NCBI GenBank assembly: GCA_943736015.1
Contig: OX031073.1
Coordinates: 23,215,210 to 23,279,209 of the forward strand
Length of the DNA stretch: 64,000 nt
Reading direction: 5' to 3'
Source: Tridacna crocea
Lineage: Eukaryota > Mollusca > Bivalvia > Cardiida > Cardiidae
Within the stretch, counting starts at the first letter, position 1. Each line of letters begins with the position of its first letter. A program made the position numbers and the translations under genes. This document shows positions 1,711 to 62,333 of this stretch, piece after piece. The notes under the pieces were generated by a model. It saw only the letters and a list, made by a program, of their open reading frames with translations, had not been told where the DNA came from and did not search any database.

Positions 1711-1897
1711 TTAATCTTATGCCAAACAATCCGAGTTATAACAACCCTGAAAAAGATGCCTTTTGAAAACATGGTGGGAAAAGTAGAAAATGCTGGTAAC
1801 CAGCATTTTCTACTTTTCCCACAATGTTTTTGGCACTGTCAAAGACACTGGAATCATTGTGTGAGCTACATTCAATGTGTCACTGTAAATGCATTTA

Positions 1898-3113: not shown

Positions 3114-3342
3114 TTAACCCATTGCCACACAATCCCTACTTATGACGCCCCTGAGAAAGAAGCCTTTTGAAAACACTGAGAGAAAAGGAGAAAATGCTGG
3201 TAACCAGCATTTTCTCCTTTTCTCTCAGTGTTTTCTACCCTTCCAAGAACCAATTTCTATTTTTCAGTCACCTTTATTTTGTCATCAGCAAATGCTTTCA
3301 ACTCGGACCAGTCTAAAATTTTCTGGTGTGGTAAAGAGTTAA
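3114..3342 (+). mobile_element. Hp1 MITE, perfect palindrome
   Basis: TTAA on both ends. The stem has the matched variant ACTGAGAGAAAAGG with CCTTTTCTCTCAGT on the other arm. The change from TGTGGG to TGAGAG therefore appears in both arms. Confidence 0.9.
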
Positions 3343-4619: not shown

Positions 4620-4848
4620 TTAACCCTTTACCCCACAAGGCATTTCTATGGTATCTCTAATTGACCCTAAATAACACAAAGGATGAAGCTGTTTCTTATG
4701 TGCATATGACACCTTTTGATAGCATAGAAGACATTGTGACAAAAGGTGAAATTGCTCGTCACGAGCAATTTCACCTTTTGCCACAATGTTATCAAAAGGC
4801 ACCTACAAGCAATGCGTAGAAACAAGTATTTATGGAGTAAAGGGTTAA
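4620..4848 (-). mobile_element. Hp2 MITE
   Basis: TTAA at both ends. The long arm reads CCCTTTACCCCACAAGGCAT with TCTCTAATTGACCCTAAAT; the short arm ends GGAGTAAAGGGTTAA. The palindrome is ATTGTGACAAAAGGTGAAAT around CTCGTCACGAG. It is inserted in the interior of the 1.3-kb TIR element. Confidence 0.9.
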
Positions 4849-4997
4849 ATCGCTATCGAAACGCAACTTGAACGTAAACATCGTAAATGAAGCGCTATCG
4901 GATCACTCAAGAGCGCAAATGTTCCTCCAGTATGCCGGTCATTGCGCTCCTATGTGATCCGATAGCGACCATCAGAGATGCAGTAGTGCTCCGTTGC

Positions 4998-6418: not shown

Positions 6419-6705
6419 TTAACTCTTTGCCAAACGACAAAATGTTAGACTGGTCATAATTGAAAGCATTAAATTTTGCAGACAGCAAAATGAAAGTTAA
6501 TGAGAACTTAAAATATATATTGGAAAGAGTGGAAAAAATTGTGGGAAAAGGAGAAAATGCTGGATACCAGCATTTTCTCCTTTTCCCACAATGTTTTCTC
6601 CCTTTTCCATAGAAAATTTTAACTTTTCAGTTGTATTTATATTGTCGTCTGCAAATGCTTTCAATTTGGACCAGTCCAAAAATTTGTTGATTGGTAAAGA
6701 GTTAA
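6419..6705. mobile_element. Hp1 variant with two long arms (B/B)
   Basis: Both ends are arm B: TTAACTCTTTGCCAAACGAC on the left and, read inward from the right, TTAACTCTTTACCAATCAAC, each followed by the GGTC...AATTGAAAGCAT block and GCAGAC. The whole 287-bp element is therefore an inverted repeat, unlike the usual A/B copies. Confidence 0.85.
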
Positions 6706-7275: not shown

Positions 7276-7376
7276 GCATTTTTTCCCTTGCCCAGAATGA
7301 TTGCAAAAGTCTAATTCCCCAATGTTTTAAGAATCTATTTGAGTCAAGTATTTGGAAAAGAAATATAATGACCCGA

Positions 7377-7564
7377 AGCTCCAGATAAGAGGGAGTGAAT
7401 TGTTATTCTCTATTATTTCTCTCCCAAACCCTATGTTATGGGTACTCATTAGAATCGTCTCAATGAGACGATTCTAATGAGTACCCATAACATAGGGTTT
7501 ACAGGAGAAAAATTAATATTTTCGATTTTGAAATCAAAATCACTCCCTCTATAATGGAGCTCTG
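7377..7564. mobile_element. CAGAGCTCC palindromic MITE, copy 1
   Basis: TIRs read GAAGCTCCAGATAAGAGGGA and CAGAGCTCCATTATAGAGGG. The core is a near-perfect inverted repeat with arms of about 37 bp built from ACCCTATGTTATGGGTACTC and ATTAGAATCGTCTC. Flanks TAATGACC and TAATGATG look like a decayed 8-bp duplication. Copies 2 and 3 are at 27668 and 36196. Confidence 0.8.
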
Positions 7565-11597: not shown

Positions 11598-14503
11598 ATT
11601 CTCTGAAACCGCTGGTCAGATTTTGAAATAATTTCACAGAAATGTTCTTTGGATGACCCTTTTTAGCTCACCTGAGCACGAAGTGCTCATGGTGAGCTAT
11701 TGTGATCGTGCTGTGTCCGTCGTCCGTCGTCTGTCGTGCGTCGTGCGTCGTCAACTTTTTACCTTGTGTACGCTCTACAGGCCACAGTTTTGGTCGGATA
11801 CTCATGAAAGTTGGTCAGGATGTTTGTCTCGATAAAATCTCGGACGAGTTCGAAAATGGGTCATGTGGGGTCAAAAACTAGGTCACTAGGTCAAATCTTA
11901 GAAAAACCTTGTGTACGCTCTAGAGGCCGCATTTTGAGTCGGATACTCATGAAAGTTGGTCAGGATGTTTGTCTCGATGATATCTCGGACGAGTTCGAAA
12001 ATGGGTCATGTGGGGTCAAAAAGTAGGTCACTAGGTCAAATCTTAGAAAAACCTTGTGTACGCTCTAGAGGCCGCATTTTGAGTCCGATACTCATGAAAG
12101 TTGGTGAGGATGTTTGTCTCGATGATATCTCGGACGAGTTCGAAAGTGGGTCACGTGGGGTCAAAAACTAGGTCACCAGGTCAAATCTTAGAAAAACCTT
12201 GTGTACGCTCTAGAGGCCACATTTTCAGTCAGATACTCATGAAAGTTGGTGAGGATGTTTGTCTGGATGATATCTCGGACGAGTTCGAAAGTGGGTCACG
12301 TGGGGTCAAAAACTAGGTCACCAGGTCAAATCTTAGAAAAACCTTTTGTACGCTCTAGAGGCCACATTTTCAGTCGGATACTCATAAAACTTGGTCAGGA
12401 TGTTTGTCTGGATGATATCTCGGACGAGTTCGAAAGTGGGTCACGTGGGGTCAAAAACTAGGTCACCAGGTCAAATCTTAGAAAAACCTTTTGTACGCTC
12501 TAGAGGCCACATTTTCAGTCGGATACTCATGAAAAATGGTCAGGATGTTTGTCTGGATGATATCTCGGACGAGTTTGAAAGTGGGTCACGTGGGGTCAAA
12601 AACTAGGTCACCAGGTCAAATCTTAGAAAAACCTTTTGTACGCTCTAGAGGCCACATTTTCAGTCGGATACTCATGAAAGTTGGTCAGGATGTTTGTCTG
12701 GATGATATCTCGGACGAGTTCGAAAATGGGTCACGGGTCAAAAACTAGGTCACCAGGTCAAATCTTAGAAAAACCTTTTGTAGGCTCTAGAGGCCACATT
12801 TTTAGTTGGATACTCATGAAAGTTGGTCAGGATGTTTGTCTGGATAATATCTCGGACGAGTTTGAAAATGGGTCACGTGGGGTCAAAAACTAGGTCACTA
12901 GGTCAAATCTTAGAAAAACCTTTTGTACGCTCTAGAGGCCACATTTTCAGTCGGATACTCATGAAAGTTGGTCAGGATGTTTGTCTGGATGATATCTCGG
13001 ATGAGTTTGAAAATGGGTCACGTGGGGTCAAAAACTAGGTCACTAGGTCAAATCTTAGAAAAACCTTTTGTACGCTCTAGAGGCCACATTTTCAGTCGGA
13101 TACTCGTGAAAGTTGGTCAGGATGTTTGCCTGGATGATATCTCGGACAAGAACGAAAATGGGTCATGTGGGGTCAAAAACTAGGTCACTAGGTCAAATGT
13201 TAGAAAAACCTTTTGTAGGCTCTAGAGGCCACATTTTCAGTCCGAAACTCTTGTAAGTTGGTCAGAATGTTTGTCTTGATGATATCTCAGACAGGTTTGA
13301 AAATGGGTCATTGGGGGTTAAAAACTAGGTCACCAGGTCAAATCTTAGAAAAACCTTGTATATGCTCTGGATGCCACATTTTCAGTCCAACACTCTTGAA
13401 AATTAGTCAGAATGTTTGCCTTTATAATATCTTGGATGACTTTGAAAATGGGTCATGTTGGGTCAAAAACTGGGTCAATAGGTCAAATGTTATAAACACT
13501 TTTTGTATGCTCTGGAGGACACATTTTCAGTCTGATACTCCTAAAACTTGTTCATAATATTTGTCTTGGTGATACCTTGAATGAGTTTGAAAATGGGTCA
13601 TGTGGAGTCAAAAACTAGGTCAATGGGTCAAATATTAGAAAAACCTTGTGTACACTCCAGAGGCTACATTTTCTGCCTGATACTCTTCAGACTTGGTCAG
13701 AATGTTTGTTTTGGTGATGTCTCAAAAGAGTTTGATAATGGGTATTTGTCGGGTCCAAAACTAGGTCACTTGATGAAATCTTAGAAAAACCTTTTGTACA
13801 CTGTAGAGGCCACATTTTCAGTCCAATACTCATGAAACTTGGCCAGAATGTTTGTCTTATTGATATCTCAAAAGTGTTTGATGATGGGTAATGTCTGATA
13901 AAAAACTAGGTCACTGGGAAACTAGATGGTACATGTTTGGTCAATAAACTCAGGTGAGCGATTTCAGGGCCATCATGGCCCTCTTGTTAAAAATTGTTTG
14001 TGAAATTTTGCTCCATCAAGAAACATGGCTCTGGTGAATGGGGGCTTCTTCAGAAATATATGGCCATGAGGAAATTCTTTAAAATTTTTCTTTTCTGAAA
14101 CAGCTGATCAGATTTTGAAATGATCTCACAGGAATGTTTCTTTGGTAACCCTTTTCAAAAATTGTTTGCAAAATGCTGATTTGTCTAGAAACATGGCTCT
14201 GGTGAATGGGGGCTACTTGCACTATTTGGTCGTGAAGAAATTCTTTATCTCTGAAACGGCTGATCAGATTTTGAAATAATTCCACAGAAATGTTCCTTGG
14301 CTAACCCTTTTAAAAAATTGCTCAGAAATTTTGATCCATCCAGAAACATGGTTCTGATGGCTGTGGGCTATTTACACTATACAGACATAGAGAAATTCTT
14401 AAAAATTCTTCTTCTCTGAAATGGCTGATTACATTTTGAAAAAAAATGACTATGGTTCTCTCAGAAATTCAGGTGAGCGATCCAGGGCCATCTTGGCCCT
14501 CTA
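11598..14503 (+). mobile_element. Helentron-like element with about 165-bp units, interrupted
   Basis: The left piece starts mid-unit at CTCTGAAACCGCTGGTCAGA and breaks at GACCCTTTT; the unit resumes at 13989 with AAAAATTGTTTGTGAAATTT. The right end is CAGGTGAGCGATCCAGGG plus the hairpin GGGCCATCTTGGCCC and CTCT. The left terminus is missing. No Rep/helicase gene is present. The Helentron assignment is inference from the 3-prime hairpin, inverted terminal motifs and lack of a target duplication. Confidence 0.65.
11665..13988 (+). mobile_element. Helentron-like element with 145-bp tandem units
   Basis: It opens AGCTCACCTGAGCACGAAGT and has a GTCCGTCGTC microsatellite. About 15 units of 145 bp follow, starting near 11810 (one unit has a 3-bp deletion), each with GGATGTTTGTCT, ATATCTCGGACGAG and AAACTAGGTCAC. 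It closes CAGGTGAGCG, GGGCCATCATGGCCC and TCTTGTT. The unit is not a multiple of three, so the serial 71-residue frames are a by-product. The middle units are nearly identical and the outer ones diverge, as expected under unequal exchange. Confidence 0.75.
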
Positions 14504-22842: not shown

Positions 22843-22970
22843 AGTGGGACCTTGTCATTTGATTATCAAAGAAGTGAAAGGTCTGGAAAGCAGATTAATT
22901 GAGTAGCATGAAGGCGTAGTTTGTTGTATCTAAAAAACACAAATTGTATGCAACATGTACAAATAATCAT

Positions 22971-23187
22971 TTAACCCATTACTACACAATCCCTACTTTT
23001 GAAGACCCTGAGAAAGAAGCCTTTGGAAAACATTGCGGGAAAAGAAGAAAATGCTGGTAACCAGCATTTTCTCCTTTTCCCACAATGTTTTCTACCCTTC
23101 ACAAAACAAAATTCAAATTTCAGTCACTTTTATTTTGTCTTCTGCAAATGCTTTCGATTTGGACAAACCTAAAATTTTGTTGCTTAA
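22971..23187 (+). mobile_element. Hp1 MITE, first of a tandem pair
   Basis: TTAACCCATTACTACACAAT. Stem with unmatched variants (GCGGGAAAAGAAG against CTCCTTTTCCCAC). It is cut at TTTTGTTGC directly into the next copy, losing TTTGGTAATGAG. Confidence 0.85.
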
Positions 23188-23410
23188 CCCATTACCACAC
23201 AATCCCTACTTTTGAAGACCCTGAGAAAAAAGCCTTTGGAAAACATTGCGGGAAAAGAAGAAAATGCTGGTAACCAGCATTTTCTACTTTTCCCAAAATG
23301 TTTTCTACCCTTCACAAAACAAAATTCAAATTTCAGTCACTTTTATTATGTCCTCTGCAAATGCTTTCGAATTGGACAAACCTAAAATTTTGTTGTTTAG
23401 TAATGAGTAA
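23184..23410 (+). mobile_element. Hp1 MITE, second of a tandem pair
   Basis: Shares the rare variants of the previous copy (TGCGGGAAAAGAAG, CAAAACAAAATTCAAATTTC), so the pair arose by local duplication, not two insertions. Right end TTTAGTAATGAGTAA. Confidence 0.88.
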
Positions 23411-23418
23411 ATGGTCAC

Positions 23419-27667: not shown

Positions 27668-27859
27668 CAGAGCTCCAGATAGAGGGAGTGATTTTGATTT
27701 CAAAATTGAAAATATTTATTTTTCTCCACTAAACCCTATGTTGTGGGTACTCATTAGAATCGTCTCATCGAGACGATTCTAATGAGTACCCACAACATAG
27801 GGTTTCAATGTGAAGTAATGGATTTAGAATACCATCACTCCCTGTTATCTGAAGCTCTG
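27668..27859. mobile_element. CAGAGCTCC palindromic MITE, copy 2
   Basis: CAGAGCTCCAGATAGAGGGA and, inward from the right, CAGAGCTTCAGATAACAGGG. The central inverted repeat around TCTCATCGAGA is perfect for about 37 bp each side. Target duplication not clear. Confidence 0.85.
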
Positions 27860-29734: not shown

Positions 29735-30310
29735 TCTATTATTCATTCTTCTGTCACCAATGTAGTTGTTTTGACGATGGTTATGTGGGAAAGCAGCCAG
29801 TAGCTTGGAAAGAATATTGTACTGAGTACTGGTAACAGAGACTCCAGGAAAGCATGGATAGGTGCACTGGCCGCCGATATAATTGAAATGATGTTGAAAA
29901 GGGTGTTAAACACCATACCATCAAACAATCAATTATTCATTCCTCTTTCACCACTGATGTTTTTTAAAAAAATTGTTAATTAAAAGAGCAGCTAGTAGTA
30001 CTGCAGCTAGTGCCTGTCAAAGAATACTGTGTGAAGTACTGGTAGAAGAATTTTCTTAACATATTACCAAACGACAAAATTTTGGGTTTGACCAAATCGA
30101 AAGCATTTGCAGACGACAAAAGAAAAATGACTTAGAATTTGAAATCTTTTTTGTGAAGGGTAGAAAATATTATGGGAAAAGGAGAAAATGCTGGTTACCA
30201 GCATTTTCTCCTTTTCCCATAATGTTTTCAGAATTCTTCTTTCTCAGGGTCGTCAAAAGTAGGGATTGTGTGGTAATGGGTTAAAAGCACGGATGGCCAC
30301 AGTGATATAT
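29735..30310 (+). repeat. tandem SINE-B tails, one interrupted by Hp1
   Basis: Two further SINE-B bodies without tRNA heads begin at ATTCATTCTTCTGTCACC and ATTCATTCCTCTTTCACC, about 195 bp apart. The last is split by the Hp1 copy at 30056 and resumes AAGCACGGATGGCCACAG. Confidence 0.75.
30056..30284 (-). mobile_element. Hp1 MITE in a SINE tail array
   Basis: TTAA each side. Matched variant in the palindrome: ATTATGGG on one arm and CCCATAAT on the other, otherwise perfect. Confidence 0.92.
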
Positions 30311-31452: not shown

Positions 31453-31725
31453 AGATAAGCCCCTGGTAGCGCACTCGGGGTTGCTGTTTCCATCCCCGGC
31501 TCTTCCATTGTCTTTCCGAGGATAATGATATTAGTCATTCGACACAATCAATTCATCTCTCACAGCTGATCGTTGTTTCTACAATTGTTTAGAAGGAAAG
31601 CAGCAAGTGGCTTGGAAAGAATATAAAGTGCAGAGAGGTAATAAAGGAACTCCAGGAAACCATGGATAAGTGCACTGACAGCCTCGAAATAACTGAAATA
31701 ATGTTGAAATGGTGTTGAATACCAA
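31453..31725 (+). mobile_element. SINE-B ending in a microsatellite
   Basis: Head GGTAGCGCACTCGGGGTTGC with B-box region GTTTCCATCCCCGGCTC. Body CTCCAGGAAACCATGGATAA, then TGTTGAAATGGTGTTGAATA. The tail runs straight into CCAT repeats. Confidence 0.75.
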
Positions 31726-32427
31726 TCCATCCATCCGTCCCAATCCATCCATCCATCCATCCATCCATCCCAATCCATCCATCCCAGTCCGTCCATCCCA
31801 GTCCATACATCCAACCATCCATCCATCCATCCCAATCCATCCATCCATCCATCCCAATCCATCCACCCATCCATCCCAATCCATCCCAATCTATCTACCC
31901 ATCCATCCCAATCCATCCCAGTCCATCCATCCATCCTAGTCCATCCATCCATCCATCCCAGTCCATCCATCCATCCATTCCAATCCATCCCAATCCATCC
32001 ATCCTAATCCATCCATCCATCCATCCCAATCCATCCATCCAAGTCCAACCATCCCAATCCATCCCACTCCATCCATCCATCCATCCATCCATCCATCCCA
32101 ATCCATCAATCCAAGTCCATCCATCCCAATCCATCCCACTCCATCCATCCATCCATCCATCCCAATCCATCCATCCATCCATCCATCCATCCATCCCAAT
32201 CCATCCATTCATCCCAATCCATCCATCCCAATCCATCCATCCTAATCCATCCATCCATCCATTCATCCCAGTCCATCCATCCATCCCAATCCATCCATCC
32301 ATCCATCCCAATCCATCCCAGTCCATCCATCCATCCATCCTTCCATCCATCCATTCATCCCAATCCATCAGAATCCATCCATCCATCCTTCCATCCATCC
32401 ATCCATCCATCCATTCATCCATCCAGT
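31725..32427 (+). repeat. CCAT/CCCAAT microsatellite
   Basis: About 700 bp of CATC units with periodic CCCAAT and CCCAGT interruptions (CCAATCCATCCATCCATCC). All six frames stay partly open, giving artefact frames of W, M, D, G or H, P, S, I. Not coding. Confidence 0.97.
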
Positions 32428-32457
32428 AAATGAGTAAATTTGTTTATCTCGTAAAGT

Positions 32458-34049: not shown

Positions 34050-34143
34050 TACTCTAGATTATGACTGTCTTGATCAGTGCACCCAAACTGTATTTAAAGT
34101 CCTTGAGAAAATGCAATTTATATATTGAGTAATGAGAGAGATA

Positions 34144-34449
34144 AGCCATTACCACACAATCCCTACTTTTGATGACTCTGAGAAAGAAGCCTGTAGAAAA
34201 CATTGTGGTAAAAGGAGAAAATGCTGGTAACCAGTTTCTACTTTTAACGACTCTGAGAAAGAAGCCTGTAGAAAATGTTGTGGTAAAAGGAGAAAATGTT
34301 GGTAACCAACATTTTCTCCTTTTTCCCACAATGATTTCCACCCTTCACAAAACAAAATTAATTTCAGATGTTCAGTCACTTATATTTTGTCGTCTGCAAA
34401 TGCTTACAATTTGGACAACCTAAAATATTGTTGTTTGGTAAAGAGTTAA
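34144..34449 (+). mobile_element. Hp1 MITE with partial left-arm duplication
   Basis: Arm A and one stem arm occur twice (TTTTGATGACTCTGAGAAAG, then TTTTAACGACTCTGAGAAAG). The second palindrome has the matched variant GTTGGTAACCAAC. Right end TTTGGTAAAGAGTTAA. Confidence 0.88.
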
Positions 34450-34916
34450 AGGTTGTAGTAAGAGAAGGGTTGTTATTGTAGTGGTAGATAATATTTGTCG
34501 CTGCTGAATTTAAGTATTTTCATTGATCTGTTGCAATGTTTCTGAGCCATTTGGATTTGAAATGGGGAATTTGCAAGCTGCTATAAAAGTTTCAGCTTAA
34601 AGTTAAAATTTAGATTTTTTTTTTAACAAAATGACATAATATTGTTAAAAACCCGGAATGGTCTGTGTGGTGCAAAAACTTACACTTTACAATATCTTTG
34701 TTATTAGTGAAATCTCTGTTATTATCCAAGATAGTTATTTCAAACTTAGACATATCTTGAACTGTCATAAGGGGAACCTATACAACAAGGGCTGATAATC
34801 AAAGCATTTTCAGTGCATTAATGCCCCTTTTTGGATGTAAGGTATTTATTGAAACTCAGCTGAGCGTCAGCACGTACATGAGGTATTTGTGTTTTTTTTT
34901 CCAAACATTTCATGCT
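34450..34916. other. no recognised feature
   Basis: AT-rich sequence without supported genes or repeats. Confidence 0.4.
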
Positions 34917-36195: not shown

Positions 36196-36386
36196 CAGAG
36201 CTCCAGAAAGAGGGAGTGATTTCGATTTTAAAATTGAAAAAATTAACAATTCTGCACTAAACCCTATGTTGTGGGTACTCATTAGAATCGTCTCATCGAG
36301 ACGATTCTGATGAGTACCCACAACATGGGGTTTTGATGAGGGGGATGGATTTAGAATACCATCACTCCCTCTTATCTGGAGCTCTG
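36196..36386. mobile_element. CAGAGCTCC palindromic MITE with perfect 8-bp TSD, copy 3
   Basis: GTCCAAAT duplicates at 36188-36195 and 36387-36394. TIRs CAGAGCTCCAGAAAGAGGGA and CAGAGCTCCAGATAAGAGGG. The central foldback around TCTCATCGAGA has about 37-bp arms. An 8-bp duplication and CAG start fit a hAT-mobilised MITE. Confidence 0.92.
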
Positions 36387-49358: not shown

Positions 49359-49582
49359 TTAACTCTATATCACACAATCTCAGGGTTTTAATGATCCTGA
49401 ACTAAAAGGCTTTTGAAAACATTGTGGGAAAAGAAGAAAATGCTGGTAACCAGCATTTTCTTCTTTTCCCACAATGTTTTCTATTCTACCATCGACAAAA
49501 ATCAGCTGTATTTAATTTGTTGTCTACAAATGATTTAAATTTGGTCAAGTTCAAAATTTCATAGTTTTTTGTAAAGGGTTAC
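49359..49582 (+). mobile_element. Hp1 MITE
   Basis: TTAACTCTATATCACACAAT. Matched variant AAAAGAAGAAAATG and CATTTTCTTCTTTT, palindrome otherwise perfect. Right end GTAAAGGGTTAC. Confidence 0.9.
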
Positions 49583-50155: not shown

Positions 50156-50387
50156 TTAAGTCATTACCAAACAACAAAATCTTGGGTTTGTCCAAATTGA
50201 AAGCATTTGCAGATGACAAAATGAAAGTGACTGAAAATTTGAAATTTATTTTGTGAAGGGCAGAAATCATTGTGGGAAAATGAGAAAATGCTGGTTACCA
50301 GCATTTTCTCATTTTAAAACAATGTTTTCTAAAGGCTTAATTCTTTCTCAGGATCTCAAAAGTAGGGATTGTGTGGTAATGGGTTAA
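50156..50387 (-). mobile_element. Hp1 MITE
   Basis: TTAAGTCATTACCAAACAAC to GTAATGGGTTAA. Matched variant AATGAGAAAATG and CATTTTCTCATT. Confidence 0.9.
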
Positions 50388-50462: not shown

Positions 50463-50691
50463 TTAACTCTTTACCACACAAGAAAATTTTAGACTGGTCC
50501 AAATTGAAAGCATTTGCAGACGACAAAATAAAGGTGACTAAAAAATAGAAAGTTGTTCTGGGAAGGGTAGAAAACACTGTGGAAAAAGGAGAAAATGCTG
50601 GTTACCAGCATTTTCTCCTTTTCCCACAGTGTTTTCAAGAGGCTTCTTTCTCAGGGGACTCAAAAGTAGGGATTGTGTGGTAATGGGTTAA
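50463..50691 (-). mobile_element. Hp1 MITE
   Basis: TTAACTCTTTACCACACAAG to GTAATGGGTTAA. Matched ACTGTGG and CCACAGT. Right TTAA shared with Hp2. Confidence 0.93.
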
Positions 50692-62104: not shown

Positions 62105-62333
62105 TTAACTCTTTACCTCACAATTCCAACTTTAACGACCCTGAGAAAGAAAGCTTTTGAAAACATTGTTGGAAAAGAAGAAAATGCTGGTAACCAGCAT
62201 TTTCTTCTTTTCCCACAATGTTTTTTATTCCTTCTGAAAAAAAGCTTCAATTTTCAAGTCTGGTTTATTTTGTTGTCTGCAAATGCTTTCAATTTGGACT
62301 TGTCTAAAATTTTGTTGTTTGGTAAAGAGTTAA
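62105..62333 (+). mobile_element. Hp1 MITE, second nested insertion
   Basis: TTAA each side within GCTTTAAATTTGG of the outer arm. Matched variant GAAAAGAAGAAAATG and CATTTTCTTCTTTTC. Confidence 0.93.

Follow-up and report, generated by a model that had tools for sequence, protein, structure and literature searches.

Do the two arms of a palindrome carried by a dispersed repeat change together more often than chance allows, and if so, is one arm copied from the other? The question is raised by a MITE copy in the window (the whole 64,000-nt stretch of Tridacna crocea DNA analysed here, C18:23215210-23279209 of a 1.05-Gb genome in 31 contigs), where three changes in one arm of the palindrome face matching changes in the other:

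3114..3342, forward strand: MITE copy holding the finding, from TTAA to TTAA (sequence, profile alignment)
3169..3235, forward strand: 67-nt palindrome, perfect except for its unpaired centre base (sequence, hairpin fold)

The changes at 3176, 3179, and 3181 are mirrored at 3228, 3225, and 3223, respectively; T10A and G12A, each with a matching change in the opposite arm, stand on the background T7C/A59G, and this background pair (3176/3228) is a subfamily pair. Folded as single-stranded DNA, the 3169-3235 palindrome reaches -36.7 kcal/mol. The original prediction named eight such pairs as private to their copies, and all eight exist, as read in the sequence or in the alignment. Besides the copy above, they lie in the following features:

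1765..1831, forward strand: palindrome with a pair at arm position 19 (G>T / C>A)
30163..30229, reverse strand: palindrome with a pair at arm position 9 (G>A / C>T)
34140..34452, forward strand: apparent tandem pair of copies, the first truncated
49415..49481, forward strand: palindrome with a pair at arm position 19 (G>A / C>T) and arms that match elsewhere
50263..50329, reverse strand: palindrome with a pair at arm position 18 (G>T / C>A)
50570..50636, reverse strand: palindrome with the T7C/A59G pair, that is, subfamily A7
62159..62225, forward strand: palindrome with the position-19 pair (G>A / C>T), as at 49415

The position-19 pair at 62159..62225 is found in none of the eight nearest flank relatives of that copy. 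In the apparent tandem pair, C28T/G38A (GTTGG/CCAAC) occurs in the second copy only (palindrome 34271-34338); the truncated copy reads GCTGG..CCAG where the next one reads GTTGG..CCAAC, with a few other differences between them. The example at 50573 turned out not to be private, since T7C/A59G is a subfamily marker present in 33 of 335 copies.

The consensus of the family comprises 229 columns from TTAA to TTAA in the profile alignment, with a central palindrome of 67 nt (33 + 1 + 33). TTAA was read at 223 of 245 aligned 5' ends and at 117 of 117 aligned 3' ends, counts that local alignment biases toward TTAA. The ends, CCCTTTACC, resemble those of piggyBac-like elements, and judged by this likeness and by the TTAA flanks the element is a piggyBac-like MITE. 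Checked for a terminal CC[C/T]T, the left end is CCCT and the right consensus CTCT, where that base is T in 126 and C in 66 of 195 cases. Coral CMITEs, also piggyBac-like, likewise have TTAA flanks and CCCTTT-type ends (family I), are non-coding, and include tandem copies (PMC2872659); they are about 100 bp long with a 75-base internal region, whereas the element described here has 229 bp and a 67-base palindrome. In the main text on CMITEs (PMC2872659), the terms "palindrom" and "hairpin" are absent.

Matches to the MITE make up 35.2% of the window (128 matches). In 19 10-kb samples taken from the genome without selection, the share is 17.5% (204 matches over 190 kb, of which 90 reach 200 bp or more); the density is about one match per kb, and extrapolation suggests roughly a million fragments genome-wide. 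One 10-kb sample without a MITE match (L013) has several long open frames (716, 666, and 318 aa, stop to stop). Three copies at about 9.76-9.78 Mb of C10 (L064-L066), alike over the aligned stretch and spaced by 11,103 bp, probably represent a triplicated segment. Within the window, head-to-head matches at 6419-6705 form a larger palindrome of element halves, and a related MITE with other flanks and a similar palindrome (AAATTGCTCG/CGAGCAATTT) lies at 4620-4855, 10070, 35291, 40270, and 50782; across 20 copies, its centre is occupied by G (12), C (six), or A (two). The window also contains a tandem array of a 145-bp unit (11616-13918, about 15 copies, identity falling toward the edges) and a low-complexity repeat (31560-32443) read as HPSIPIHPS, with a second 10-letter reading, in long open frames on both strands, with nothing to indicate a gene. 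Scanned against Rfam (gathering threshold) and for tRNAs, the window returned no entries.

Much of the raw agreement between arms reflects subfamily differences. In 335 copies covering the core, we counted 219 same-base mirror matches and 93 mirror sites with different bases, in addition to 752 left-only and 698 right-only changes; most arm changes in the sampled copies are single-arm. Five sites (7C, 13C, 20T, 25T, 30C) contribute 140 of the 219 raw pairs and define subfamilies, which differ by fixed paired changes; subfamily C is a related element with other flanks. The suggestion that most paired variants come from arm-to-arm correction is therefore not borne out. An extra paired change is present in 35 of 181 gap-free A/A7 copies, and only four of these 35 have otherwise matching arms. 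Paired private substitutions had been described as frequent; they do exceed chance in less-changed copies (see below), but "often" overstates a share of 35 in 181.

The unpaired differences also bear on transposition through a hairpin copied from one strand, another mechanism put forward at the outset. Such transposition would be expected to leave matching arms at each insertion, which is contradicted by at least one unpaired arm difference in 161 of the 181 gap-free copies; moreover, the apparent local duplicates at 34140-34452 differ by a mirrored pair. Nothing beyond the pairs themselves favours this route, and we consider it extremely improbable.

Inheritance alone deserves more weight. 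Here, paired variants would descend from a limited number of source copies, and the palindrome would be kept by selection for amplification. The five subfamily sites agree with this explanation, as does the conservation of the palindrome: non-consensus letters amount to 10% in its arms, 22-24% in the inner flanks, 13-16% in the terminal 18 bases, and 23% at the centre base, and its pairwise divergence is 0.36-0.67 times that of the left flank at every flank distance. The internal region of coral CMITEs is likewise more conserved than their ends, according to PMC2872659.

What remains after the subfamily states are set aside was assessed in A/A7 copies, with subfamily-fixed sites and duplicates excluded. 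Removal of duplicates reduced 392 palindromes to 384. A filter that required at least 50 consensus letters out of 67 and allowed at most six gaps retained 327 of these and discarded 57; among those retained, 295 belong to A or A7. Expected counts come from shuffles in which right-arm changes, with inferred directions of change in both arms, were swapped among copies; per-copy and per-variant totals were kept and kinship was ignored.

The 213 copies with at most eight arm changes contain 35 same-base mirror pairs vs 12.7 expected (0/1000 shuffles) and 28 other-base mirror changes vs 14.6 expected (1/1000). With at most four arm changes (n = 147), the counts are 16 vs 3.34 and 12 vs 3.27, respectively (0/1000 for both), and without positions 7, 11, and 12 they are 13 vs 2.6 and 9 vs 2.1. 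There is no excess in copies with at least nine arm changes (n = 82; same-base, 41 vs 37.3 ± 5.4; other-base, 55 vs 51.1 ± 6.3). More than 20 distinct position/base pairs are involved. A second pair-counting method, applied to 120 (118 distinct) of 121 listed gap-free A copies with one to eight arm changes, gives 25 both-side changes vs 8.5 ± 2.9 expected (0/500); its slid controls yield 16-33 both-side cells, which are counted neither way, their partners being non-complementary by design. In the class with at most four changes, before duplicates and other subfamilies were removed, the exact mirror position is changed for 16.7% of left-arm changes, compared with 3.6-4.6% at neighbouring offsets and 0.5-3.7% at offsets 2-4. 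Thus, the expectation that paired changes exceed what single-arm rates would give across sampled copies is confirmed for less-changed copies, where same-base mirror changes are about three to five times as numerous as chance predicts.

The coupling is found in the close-set arms, and neither just outside them nor in 14 mirror pairs of the terminal repeats, two covarying pairs excluded. In three age classes, these 14 pairs, whose members lie about 200 bp apart, give 1 vs 1.9, 12 vs 12.6, and 25 vs 19.3 expected, and 28 core pairs in the same classes give 16 vs 4.0, 33 vs 17.4, and 86 vs 61.6; this control was run before duplicate removal, with the five subfamily sites left out of the core and sites 7 and 10 out of the terminal repeats. 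Terminal-repeat sites 7 and 10 (consensus numbering) covary, unlike most of the terminal repeat: both members are changed in 40 and 14 copies vs 15.5 and 4.2 expected, with 33 and 13 same-base pairs, respectively, and the control with these sites kept in would not be flat. They look like subfamily pairs, so distant ends can share paired subfamily states, which is a point for inheritance alone. At 12 pseudo-mirror positions just outside the arms, identity is near the expected value at each (338 copies).

Comparison with flank relatives weighs against inheritance as the whole explanation. A/A7 copies with at most six arm changes contain 27 same-base pairs, 25 of them with usable flank relatives, and for 24 of these 25 the both-arm form occurs in none of the eight nearest sampled relatives, the sample being some 300 of very many copies; nearly all the pairs are thus private among sampled relatives. 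For 11 of the 25, some relative has the variant in one arm only. Since 83 of 487 single-arm variants (17%) are common to a relative, about 31% would be expected for two arms, and 11 of 25 is a slight enrichment.

Sister copies show the same tendency. In 25 independent close sister pairs (flank distance below 0.12; no consensus used), eight of 45 left-arm differences are mirrored, compared with 2-10% at other offsets; seven of the eight are pair-to-pair, and of these seven, subfamily site 7 accounts for three and the 3164 copy for two. For all 52 independent sister pairs, 23 of 118 left-arm differences are mirrored vs 3-13% at other offsets (12 pair-to-pair, six pair/mismatch, five mismatch/mismatch). 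An origin of the paired variants in a few master copies alone, raised as the finding that would undo the case, accordingly accounts for the 140 subfamily-fixed pairs and not for the remainder, in which 24 of 25 pairs are not shared by the nearest sampled relatives. Together with the diversity of position/base pairs and the mirrored difference between the apparent tandem duplicates, this makes inheritance alone rather unlikely.

The three-base haplotype of the 3164 copy raises the possibility of exchange between copies. Its left-arm triple (7C, 10A, 12A) has 26 exact matches genome-wide and its right-arm triple 13, and the 3164 copy is the sole one in both lists. Relatives carry the left triple with the right arm unchanged or with one or two matching right changes; right-only forms occur in other backgrounds. 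We rejected the arrangement of these forms as a stepwise series (left only, partial right, both) with the 3164 copy as its endpoint: because left-only and right-only forms turn up on many backgrounds, the changes may have arisen repeatedly and independently, and their succession is unproven. Ectopic conversion, with the left arm of one copy pairing in inverted register with the right arm of another, would fit a haplotype that occupies the left arm in some copies, the right arm in others, and both in one, on varied flank backgrounds, and a density of about one match per kb. Against it, a family of this size could produce the left-only and right-only forms by repeated independent changes, and the matching of arms does not extend into the flanks; we regard such conversion as quite improbable.

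Several observations do not fit simple correction of one arm by the other. Apart from deletions spanning the centre, there are no mirrored indels with the same sequence at exact mirror sites, and two copies have insertions of different letters at mirror sites. If template switching were the only process, mirror changes in excess would be complementary, and this prediction fails, with 28 non-pairing mirror changes vs 14.6 expected. Individual cases come from a tandem pair of copies and from another palindrome family:

22966..23413, forward strand: tandem pair of copies, left-arm 10C and 19A common to both
27731..27805, forward strand: second, unrelated palindrome family (75 nt)
7411-7515 and 36259-36333: other copies of the 75-nt family, the former with one same-base mirror pair; further copies in samples L027 and L029

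In the second tandem copy (23182-23413), R47 C>A lies exactly opposite position 19 and does not pair with it, and R57 C>A adjoins the mirror of position 10 without restoring pairing. Among five well-aligned copies of the 75-nt family, one has a non-pairing and one a pairing mirror pair. The excess of non-pairing changes may mean either that finer subfamily history inflates this class or that mismatches in the palindrome attract mutation.

According to the latter possibility, a hairpin mismatch would raise the mutation of the opposite base, with the outcome only partly templated. The non-pairing excess in the sampled copies, the tandem copy, and the single non-pairing pair in the 75-nt family all point in this direction. 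However, where a left-arm variant is also found single-arm in a relative, non-pairing changes are near chance, as opposed to same-base ones: with at most eight arm changes, the mirror has the same base in 11 vs 3.2 (0/1000) and another base in 4 vs 2.4 (214/1000), and with at most four, in 6 vs 1.1 (0/1000) and 3 vs 0.83 (43/1000), respectively. Similarly, just one of the eight mirrored differences between close sisters is non-pairing, and in at least three cases a left-only change is common to relatives, so that the non-pairing class may be enlarged by finer subfamily history. We therefore consider mirror hypermutation unlikely as the main source of the pairs. The broader proposal that a mismatch in a near-perfect palindrome makes the opposite base several-fold hypermutable, with restoring as well as non-restoring outcomes, so that hairpin processing would be mutagenic and not simply corrective, can be put forward only tentatively.

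The centre base provides one more prediction, as a hairpin copied across its tip should flip it. In subfamily A, the centre is T in 36 of 268 copies (G in 13, C in five), and in A7 it is T in none of 27. Restricted to the 184 subfamily-A matches of at least 200 bp, the centre has 19 T, eight G, and two C, compared with 150 T, 171 G, and 57 C at 7325 other A/T core sites of those copies. In a comparison with young-copy sites made before duplicate removal, the excess of T has a Fisher p of 1.3e-7. Copies with T at the centre lean weakly toward an arm swap (mean LLR -0.43 ± 0.21) and are not richer in pairs, with 10 same-base pairs and 234 single changes in 36 copies vs 56 and 1119 in 214 copies. 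The excess of A>T fits the hairpin inversion prediction and is suggestive only, because the centre is a general mutation hotspot too, with G also raised.

Taking all this into account, the best reading is that, in addition to the inheritance of subfamily states, one arm now and then serves as the template for the other (quasipalindrome correction or template switching), and we hold this reading to be somewhat more probable than its alternatives taken together. The limitation of coupling to close-set arms, the privacy of nearly all the pairs, and the centre-inversion signature make some arm-to-arm copying likely; to this extent the original prediction of correction between arms is upheld, whereas a purely corrective process does not predict the non-pairing excess. 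Under arm-to-arm templating, an inserted copy would acquire a point change in one arm, the palindrome would fold into a hairpin during replication or repair, and a polymerase would now and then copy one arm from the other, thereby either erasing the change, which would be invisible, or carrying it to the other arm; copying may sometimes flip the centre base, and amplifying copies would convert paired changes into subfamily markers.

Comparable processes are known. According to Monttinen and Loytynoja (2022; PMC8794818), no evidence for template switching could be stronger than a compensatory change combined with loop inversion, and the mutations described there in DNA hairpins are likewise complementary double changes in stem arms that turn mismatches into pairs; that system consists of RNA genes under selection for pairing, whereas here numerous dispersed non-coding MITE copies are concerned and non-pairing changes are also raised. 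Homogenisation of short inverted repeats in yeast genes similarly uses one arm as the template for the other and makes imperfect repeats perfect (Abraham and Hazkani-Covo, 2021; PMC8604942), the events reported being multi-base and between strains, while ours are mostly single-base pairs across dispersed copies of one genome. In quasipalindrome-associated mutation in Escherichia coli and yeast, imperfect inverted repeats are likewise hotspots, and in yeast such mutation extends the identity between arms (PMC7202029, PMC3820800); that work concerns laboratory strains, in contrast to the natural repeat family considered here. Among titles and abstract openings, with partial coverage of the literature, we found no report of arm coupling in MITE palindromes.

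As described in these sources, hairpin-templated correction has so far been studied in laboratory strains, yeast genes, and RNA genes, and in the last of these its reading is confounded because pairing itself is selected for. Here, a single eukaryotic genome offers about one non-coding palindrome fragment per kb; the non-palindromic flanks can serve as a clock, and the terminal repeats supply a control within the element itself. MITE palindromes would thus make the rate, tract length, and direction of arm copying measurable from a finished assembly, as well as the existence of mirror hypermutation, so that this very abundant palindrome would allow a known type of mutation to be studied in a natural setting.
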